From positions 35,909,492-35,973,491 of the forward strand of contig CM055907.1 in the NCBI GenBank assembly GCA_029582155.1: 64,000 bases of DNA, in the 5' to 3' direction. The translations under genes and the position numbers were made by a program. The notes under the pieces were generated by a model, which worked only from the letters and a program-made list of their open reading frames with translations, had not been told where the DNA came from and did no database searches. This DNA comes from Panopea generosa (Eukaryota > Mollusca > Bivalvia > Adapedonta > Hiatellidae). Positions 48,801 to 51,800 of the stretch are shown here, piece after piece; positions within the stretch are counted from its first letter, which is position 1, and each line of letters begins with the position of its first letter.

Positions 48801-51800
48801 TTGATTACATTATTAGGCGATAAAATTATTTTGCACTAAACCTTGAATTGTTTTCATGCGTGTGCAAGCTCACTTTGCCAGAGATAGATTTATTGTAACC
48901 TTACTTTATGAAAGATGAATTTATTGTGAGCTCACTTCAGTTGGGATAAATTTGTAGAAAGTTGCTTCAGTTTTGAGATACATTTTATTTCGTTACAAGC
49001 TTAATTTATTGTAGATAGATTATCTGATCAATTTTGTTGTCTGTACTTCTGAGATAAATATTATTGTAAGCTCACTTCAGTTGAAATAAATTTTAATGTA
49101 AGTTTGTAAAGTGTTTTTTAAATTAGTTCTATTTTAATCTTGCAAAGTTGTTTATATTTAGATGATTTGGTTGTAAGCTCACTTCATCTGAGATAAATCT
49201 TATTGTAAGCTCACTTTATCTTAGGTAAATTTTATTGTAAGCTCACTTTATCTGAGATAAATCTTATTGTAAGCTCACTTTATCTTAGGTAAATATTATT
49301 GTACGCTTTCTTCATCTGATAGAATTTTTATGGTAAGCTCACTTCATCTGAGATAAATCTTAGGTAAATTTTATTATAAACTTCTTCTGTTGTAAGTTCA
49401 CTTATCTGAGATCAGTCTTATAGTAAACTTACTTCATCTGAGATAATTTTTTTATAGTAAACTTACTTCATCTGAGATAAATTTTTATTGTAAGCTTACT
49501 TCACCTGAGATAAATTTTTATTGTAAGCTTACTTCATCTGGGAAATTTTTTATTGTAAGCTTACTTCATCTGAAATAAATTTTGTTGTAAGTTTACTTCA
49601 TTTGAAATAAATTTTATTGTAAGCTTACTTCATCTGGGAAAATTTTTATTGTAAGCTTACTTCATCTGGGAAAATTTTTATTGTAAGCTTACTTCATCTG
49701 AAATAAATTTTGTTGTAAGTTTACTTCATCTGAAATAAATTTTGTTGTAAGCTTACTTCATCTGAAATAAATTTTGTTATAAGCTTACTTCATTTAAGAT
49801 AAATCTTATTGTATGTTTGCTTCATCTGAGATATATTTTATTGTTAGCTCACTTCATTTGAGATCAGTTTTATTGTGAGCATTATAGTATGAGATAACAC
49901 AACTTGGTTCTTTATAGAAATCTCTTCGCGGCACAGTGAGCTTCAAAGTAATTCCAAACCAGCGTGGACTGGTGACGTGGGAACGCTTTGAAAACAATAA
50001 CCACAAAGAGGTAGGTGGTGTTGTATTTACAATCATGTTTTGTCTTTGTGCTGCAGTTGAGTCAAATTACCCCACCCAGTCTTTACTCTCCATATAGTTT
50101 CAAGCAATGGTGTTTCTAGCATCTATCTGTAAAAAGCAAATTGTTTGATTTTATTTTTGAATTTCACAGCGATCGCCTGACAATGCATCAATGAGAATCA
50201 GTGTTAGTTGCAGGATTGTCACTAGTTGTAAATGTGGCAAAATTATGAGAAACCGTAGTTCTTAACTTGTTTTTGTTGACAATTGACAACATCTTATTGT
50301 TGCTACCAGTTAGGAAACCAAATATAAATATAGAGTTAATAATTCCCATAGTTCGCTAATTATGTATAAAGACAGCGATGAATAAATAGGTGGACAGTCT
50401 GTTTGAGAATTAAATTTGCCATCTTTAATTAGGACTGTATTTTAGATTTTCTAAATGATTTACTGAATTTTATTAAGTATATACAGTCAAGCTTGTTTTA
50501 AGCAGCCAGTCAAAGAAAGCAGCAAAAGTTGGCTTTTTATGACAGGTTTGTTGCTTAATGCAGGTTAATTTAATCTGAAAGCATAAAAATGGGAAATAGA
50601 AAATGTGGTTGCTTGAGACAAGTGGTTGCTTAATAGAGGTGATCGCTAACAAAGGTGTGACTGTATTTTAATGTGATGAATTTCTATTATCAGTTTTACA
50701 TTATCTGTCTATTTCCTCCTATGTTGAACTTCTTCTCTTTATTTATTTTTTTTTTTTTTTTAAATTGATGCATTTCAAAGTACTTGGTACACATGCATTT
50801 TAATTTTTTTTCGCTCATTTGGATCTGCAAATTCTCGTTGAATTAAAAAGTGTTTGTGTACTTTTAAAAATTGCAACTGAAATGCTCTAATCATTTAACA
50901 TAATAACTTGGTTGTTGTTTTTTGCAATTATTTATTCAATCCTAACATGTATCATATACATGAATAAATTTGCTGGACCTAGTTAGCTCAGTCGGTAGCA
51001 CATCTAAATTTCAATCCAGGCATCGTGAGTTTGAATCCCCGCACGGTCATTCTCCCTGATGATTGATATACAACATTGCATCTTATCATCAACTGTCTTT
51101 ACTGCTGTTTCAAATGGGAAAGTTATCAGTTACTTGCGTAGATGGATGTGATTGAGTATTGGTTAACCTTCCAGGATCCCAGGTAGCAGTGGTTAGGTTA
51201 ACTGGTTGTCCGTTAGCCGTTGATGACATAAAAATGATGCTCAATATTTAAACATACATGAATAAAGTTCCCTTTCTTCTCATTTTGATATGACAAAAAT
51301 TCAAATTTTTAACCCCCCAAAAATGTAAAAAGAAAGTTTATCCCCAAAAATTTCATATCTGAGATGAATCGGGTAAGTAAAACAATGGAGAGAAATAAAA
51401 CAAATGAAATTCGCAATTATAACAACAATTTTTTTTTATCAAAGACACATGGTGGGGTCACTTGACTAGCTGAAGCACACCATTCACTTGTGTTTGTCGT
51501 AACCATGACACTTTCATTTATAACTGCTTACAGAGAGCGGCCAACGGTAACGTTATGCTGAAGATTGTCCCCGGATATAGGGGCCACACATCACAATGTG
51601 AGGTAATACCACCCCCTAATGCCCCCGCATCCTTGTTCTGCCCGATATTGTAACTGTACCAGGTCAAGGAAATCCGCAAAACAAATTATTTGCTGAATGA
51701 CATCATTTAATGAATGACAAATCTTTTACGTGTTAGTGTTGTTTGACAAATGCGCCATTCCAGAGCTGTAAAATAAAAAAAAATTTGTAACAGTGGCACT

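Follow-up and report, generated by a model that had tools for sequence, protein, structure and literature searches.

The window, the whole stretch of 64,000 nucleotides of Panopea generosa DNA that was analyzed, carries core exons of what is seemingly a single-copy CASK gene. CASK is a scaffold protein of nerve cells. We scanned a region of 194 kb, consisting of 70 kb upstream, the window and 60 kb downstream, by tblastn with a human CASK query, and the L27, PDZ, SH3, hook and GK exons were found in order on the plus strand. A genome search, in which 96 of 207 candidates were scored, located upstream CaMK exons at C14:35715870-35805841 with 56-95% identity and an L27 match at C14:35812562. Read from the genomic exons alone, the domain order of CASK (CaMK, L27, PDZ, SH3, GK) was present on the same strand. 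The gene measures approximately 264 kb from the first CaMK exon to the stop, and the predicted protein ends in VPVSWVY. The core exons are listed below, with identities from the tblastn search with human CASK. The GK stretch in exons c and d is here called the lid region.

46766..46951, plus strand: end of the L27 region, linker and start of the PDZ domain; ends in phase 0; 69% identity over 65 aa
47983..48147, plus strand: PDZ exon preceding exons a and b; ends in phase 0; 82% identity over 55 aa
49918..50010, plus strand: exon a, last PDZ strand and 14-residue tail; 93 nt, phase 0/0; rank 1 of 3813 in the candidate scan
51534..51602, plus strand: exon b, last PDZ strand and short CASK-type tail; 69 nt, phase 0/0; rank 2 of 3813
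58947..59045, plus strand: common SH3 exon; starts in phase 0; 66% identity
59182..59329, plus strand: second SH3 exon; 57% identity
60227..60367, plus strand: hook and start of the GK domain; 78% identity
60839..60919, plus strand: GK exon 1; 87% identity
61998..62200, plus strand: GK exon 2, which precedes the pair c/d; 203 nt; 73% identity
63668..63748, plus strand: exon c, a core strand of the GK domain with the lid region; CASK-type short form; 81 nt, phase 0/0
L016:4357-4458 (window-equivalent 68357-68458), outside the window: exon d, partner of exon c; 102 nt, phase 0/0
L016:6604-6780: last coding exon

Apart from the two pairs, each core exon gave one convincing match and no duplicate in the 194 kb (tblastn with human CASK, E <=200, matches above 22 bits). 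The PDZ-SH3-GK core was also compared with the whole 1.47-Gb assembly. Among the best candidates scored, 30 matches were obtained at E <=10, with 10 in the CASK gene, 13 in four other MAGUK-like loci and 7 scattered. The best identity to the core at the other MAGUK-like loci was 57%, over 28 residues, and these scored candidates included no further CASK-like or MPP1-like gene in the assembly. The four loci are located at C18:36208390-36243438, C18:48685962-48702582, C4:71108766-71121405 and C14:65.02-65.14 Mb, and resemble MPP2/6-, MPP3/7-, MPP5- and DLG-type genes, type names that are our own reading of the matches. On C9, three pairs of PDZ matches with equal scores were observed about 1.68 Mb apart, at 48.49-48.52 Mb and 50.17-50.20 Mb (L004 and L005), suggesting either that the segment was recently duplicated or that the assembly contains it twice.

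A scan of GTDB contigs with the PDZ exon yielded 172 candidate stretches and one locus, in a Gammaproteobacteria MAG with 59% GC (L054). This locus was rejected as a relative, being an accidental match around HGGMIHRQG with no other convincing CASK exon. Two scans of IMG/VR gave no match (0 of 30 and 0 of 3 candidates).

Two exons for the end of the PDZ domain

Exon a comprises 31 codons, with the acceptor ctttatag and the donor GAG/gtaggt, and exon b comprises 23 codons, with the acceptor gcttacag and the donor GAG/gtaata. Each of them joins the PDZ exon (47983-48147) and the common SH3 exon (58947-59045) in frame through GT-AG sites. To score how well they code for the last PDZ strand, we collected from both strands of the 194 kb all open stretches of 16 residues that were preceded by AG and had an in-phase GT 48-150 nt downstream (n = 3813), and compared them by BLOSUM62 with the last PDZ strand of human CASK, MPP1 and MPP5. 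The scores were 50 for exon a, 44 for exon b and 22 for the candidate at rank 3. Both exons score as PDZ ends well beyond what chance would give, and no third copy of the PDZ end was found among the 3813 candidates of the 194 kb. The first-pass annotation had proposed two tandem exons here, both in phase 0/0 and with splice sites, coding for the last PDZ strand; the coordinates, the frames and the candidate scan all agree with this description. The two exons share 5 of 16 residues, and a usable dN/dS was not obtained for them.

The donor of exon a scored 10.3 bits, third of the 11 donors modelled after those of 13.0 and 10.5 bits, and the donor of exon b scored 5.4 bits, the weakest of the 11; these values come from a weight matrix that was not trained on the species. 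Exon b agrees with human CASK at 8 of 16 residues, compared with the 82% identity of the preceding PDZ exon. The weakest donor together with poor conservation toward CASK would fit a weak or decaying exon. When the PDZ segment was joined to either exon and compared with solved structures, the best match was 1kwa (CASK) in both cases, with 111.8 bits for exon a and 109.4 bits for exon b. These sequence comparisons support the view that either exon could complete a CASK-type PDZ domain. Queried alone, exons a and b gave no PDZ match in the structure bank, which is expected at such a length.

The same annotation had called exon b CASK-like and exon a MPP-like, and these labels held in part. Human comparison sequences were taken from solved structures. 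Residue identities fit the labels: of 16 positions, exon a matches human MPP1 at 9 and CASK at 6, and exon b matches human CASK at 8 and MPP1 at 4. The BLOSUM62 scores do not, because exon a fits CASK (49) about as well as MPP1 (50), both above the score of exon b with CASK (44). The joined segment scored better with exon a for the solved structures of CASK, MPP1, MPP5 and, slightly, MPP7, whereas MPP2, against the label, favored exon b (53.5 bits versus 45.5 bits with exon a). Since exon a fits CASK as well as MPP1, its MPP-type label depends on a handful of residues (KVIPNQ).

A second tandem pair in the GK domain

A second tandem pair, absent from the first-pass annotation, was found in the GK domain. 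A tblastn search with human CASK matched one 16-residue GK segment twice, at exon c and, independently, at exon d, which lies 4.6 kb past exon c. Both exons have GT-AG splice sites and are in phase 0/0. Over 22 aligned codons, 15 of 22 residues and 41 of 66 bases are identical, and the Nei-Gojobori method gave a dN of 0.30, a dS of 3.49 and a ratio of about 0.09, a rough value because dS is saturated and the stretch is short. The agreement of the proteins despite diverged bases, together with this ratio, indicates that both exons have long been maintained as coding sequence after an old duplication. When the 194 kb were scanned with exon c, exon d and an MPP2/6-like exon as queries, exon c scored 111, exon d 104 and the next match 32; no further copy was found in the 194 kb with these queries, which include exons c and d themselves.

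The choice of GK exon changed the scores against the wider family. Exon c gave more bits with CASK (216 versus 201.9 with exon d) and with MPP1 (166 versus 158.8), and exon d gave more bits with MPP5 (105 versus 94.1 with exon c), with those DLG chains that were listed for either exon and with the majority of true guanylate kinases. CASK outscored MPP1 whichever GK exon was used. The solved CASK and MPP1 domains need a 7- to 9-residue gap to align with exon d, whose length is about that of the wider family. By these scores and lengths, exon c belongs to the short CASK/MPP1 type and exon d to the longer MPP5/DLG type. The division within this pair is clearer than that within the PDZ pair, and it separates CASK and MPP1 from the rest, not CASK from MPP1.

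The exon borders were compared with those of related genes in the assembly. Two paralogues share the start of the corresponding GK exon, namely the MPP2/6-like gene (L049:2515, present once in the 5 kb examined) and the MPP5-like gene (L025, present once in the 3.2 kb examined). The PDZ-end exon of the MPP5-like gene begins where exons a and b begin (L048; one copy in the stretch examined), and no PDZ-end exon was found for the two C18 genes (L046 and L047). Judged from the MPP5-like gene for the PDZ end and from both paralogues for the GK end, the borders are old.

Use of the paired exons

Eight of the 16 possible exon combinations were tested, namely the four with one exon from each pair, those with both or neither of exons a and b (with exon c), and those with both or neither of exons c and d (with exon b). 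All eight were in frame and open, and the four with one exon from each pair were open to the terminal stop. Within the pairs the exons measure 93 and 69 nt (a and b) and 81 and 102 nt (c and d), differences of 24 and 21 nt. The members are separated by introns of 1.5 kb (a/b) and 4.6 kb (c/d), and all sites are GT-AG. The expectation of the first-pass annotation that the introns would be too long to force exclusivity, so that another mechanism would be needed, is borne out by the 1.5-kb intron between exons a and b, and the frame imposes no constraint either. As frame, intron length and splice-site class impose no choice, regulation by splicing factors would be needed.

No clear regulatory element for the choice of exon was found among the inverted repeats, the minisatellite pairings and the splicing-factor motifs. 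Motifs near exons a, b, c and d occurred in small counts, taken without a control. Of 30 pairs of inverted repeats, 25 were displayed, and among these some weaker ones (such as I3 and I12), with 21-30 nt and 70-81% complementarity and likewise without a shuffle control, span exon a or b. The longest of those displayed is a transposon-like hairpin at window positions 48200-48509, about 50 bases past the donor of the PDZ exon, with 59-nt arms of 85% complementarity and outer 21-nt arms; it spans no exon. A 32-bp minisatellite of 22.2 copies occupies window positions 49171-49880 and stops 37 bases before exon a. Five copies contain 9 bases exactly complementary to exon a, and eight more do so with one G-U pair. 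We rejected this pairing as a regulatory signal because 197 of 1000 synonymous recodings and 84 of 992 random windows pair with the repeat unit too. Between exons a and b, a tRNA-like stretch (gttagctcagtcggtagcacatc...gagtttgaatcccc) was observed at window positions of about 50980-51060; it appears by eye to be the head of a SINE, and ARAGORN reported no tRNA.

We consider it likely that two core exons of this CASK gene were each duplicated in tandem and kept as coding alternatives, most probably with one member of each pair in each mRNA. The pair a/b would provide the final beta strand of the PDZ domain together with the PDZ-SH3 linker, and the pair c/d would provide a GK core strand and the lid region. 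With one exon from each pair in the mature mRNA, up to four isoforms of the core could be made. Use of exon a instead of exon b would lengthen the PDZ-SH3 linker by 8 residues; that this choice alters the linker had been proposed before, and exon a is indeed 8 codons longer than exon b. Use of exon d instead of exon c would add 7 residues to the GK region. The choice of exons may tune the packing of PDZ, SH3 and GK, and hence which partners bind. We infer splicing of all four exons into mRNA, exclusive use within each pair under the control of splicing factors, and a change in binding as a result. One exon from each pair is predicted to be the only pattern that would complete both the PDZ and the GK fold, because a fold with none or two exons of a pair would lack a strand or carry a surplus strand.

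It is less probable, and on the whole unlikely, that both pairs are real but serve as optional cassettes, of which one, both or neither is included, in the manner of exons 19 and 20 of the human PDZ-SH3 linker. The lengths of all four exons are multiples of three, the forms tested with double inclusion or skipping stay open, and introns of 1.5 kb and 4.6 kb leave room for both members to be spliced. In human CASK, exons 19 (69 bp) and 20 (36 bp) are cassettes of this kind, and no variant was found that lacks both (PMC8208546). However, exons a/b and c/d each code for a core strand of a folded domain, unlike the human linker cassettes, so that doubling or skipping should break the fold.

It also seems unlikely that the PDZ pair includes a relic, a duplicated exon in the course of being lost, with only exon a or only exon b in normal use. 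The weak donor of exon b, its poor match to CASK and the tail of exon a, which has no PDZ match in the structure bank, would be consistent with such a loss. Against it, neither exon has a stop or a lost splice site, the strand pattern of both is far above chance in the candidate scan, and this gene has kept another old pair, c/d, so that a maintained alternative is likelier than an isolated relic. That exon a is an intronic stretch resembling a PDZ strand by chance is highly improbable and was rejected on the candidate scan: exon a has only 31 codons and no PDZ match on its own, but it ranked first in the 194 kb, with a score of 50 against 22 for the best candidate other than a and b, and it lies in the right intron, order, strand and phase.

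Comparison with known systems and evolutionary reading

Kept as coding alternatives, the two pairs resemble tandem duplicated or mutually exclusive exons, which are neighboring, homologous and phase-compatible and of which one is expected per transcript (PMC9741552). Exons a/b and c/d are neighboring homologous exons of the same phase with in-frame GT-AG joins. A search method for mutually exclusive exons has been described (PMC3228551), and several tandem pairs in one gene are known from voltage-gated calcium channels (PMC9741552). The main text of PMC9741552 makes no mention of CASK, MPP1, MAGUK, PDZ or guanylate kinase, and our searches of open-licence PMC papers found no report of tandem alternative exons in CASK or in the PDZ or GK domain of a MAGUK. 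The design is of a known kind in an apparently new place.

Splice variants of CASK in human brain that differ in exons 11, 19, 20 and 23L also differ in neurexin-1beta binding, which is stronger for TV2 than for TV1 and TV7 (PMC8208546). The authors assign exons 19 and 20 to the PDZ-SH3 linker and propose that such insertions may alter the PDZ-SH3-GK module (PMC8208546). In mouse CASK, exon E24a is induced by depolarization and lies in the intron after the 203-bp GK exon; it is 120 nt long, found only in mammals, hydrophobic and of low complexity (PMC3447378). GK exon 2 of the present gene also has 203 nt, equal to the mammalian exon before intron 24 (PMC3447378), and exons c and d come after it. 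Mammalian CASK varies in splicing at the same two places, the PDZ-SH3 linker and the intron that follows the 203-bp GK exon (PMC8208546, PMC3447378). The means differ, since mammalian cassettes are inserted or omitted, whereas here homologous strands are predicted to be exchanged; the likeness noted is one of position. As E24a follows the 203-bp GK exon, exons c and d follow a 203-nt exon and the linker varies too, splicing variation would fall at the same two spots by different means. Human exons 19 and 20 are presumably E18 and E19 in the numbering of PMC3447378, an equation of our own.

Two other systems are related in part. Drosophila Cask alpha/beta is a case in which one invertebrate CASK gene gives a CASK-type and an MPP1-like product, but it does so through two start sites, with removal of the CaMK and L27 domains, and the passages on it mention no exchange of PDZ or GK exons such as is predicted here (PMC4075472). 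Calcium-channel beta subunits, SH3-GK proteins related to MAGUKs, have the mutually exclusive exons 7a, 7b and 7c in vertebrates (PMC3972191). These code for the HOOK region, not for the PDZ end or a GK strand, and molluscs use alternative acceptors there instead of tandem exons (PMC3972191).

As a tentative and rather doubtful reading, the PDZ pair may be an ancient trait of animals older than the split of vertebrate CASK and MPP1. An ancestral gene would have produced both PDZ ends through a splice choice; once it was duplicated, CASK would have kept the b-type (KIVPxYR) and MPP1 the a-type (KVIPNQ), and the present genome would retain the splice choice, together with the parallel choice of exons c and d between a CASK-type short and a general-MAGUK long form. 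This partition reading sets the retained splice choice beside the observation that no MPP1 gene was seen among the scored matches in the assembly. MPP1 has been described as the last-evolved member of the MPP group (PMC1978500), and a division of alternative exons between daughter genes is known for CACNA1F/CACNA1S and for the FYN family (PMC9741552). To extend such a partition of exons to CASK and MPP1 is speculation.

CASK binds neurexins and other synaptic partners, and human mutations are associated with intellectual disability and microcephaly (PMC8208546). Exchangeable strands in the PDZ-SH3-GK core would provide naturally occurring substitutions for studying how partner choice is controlled by the linker and the GK domain. 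If the pair is conserved, it would provide a direct test of whether alternative exons of one gene were later split between CASK and MPP1.
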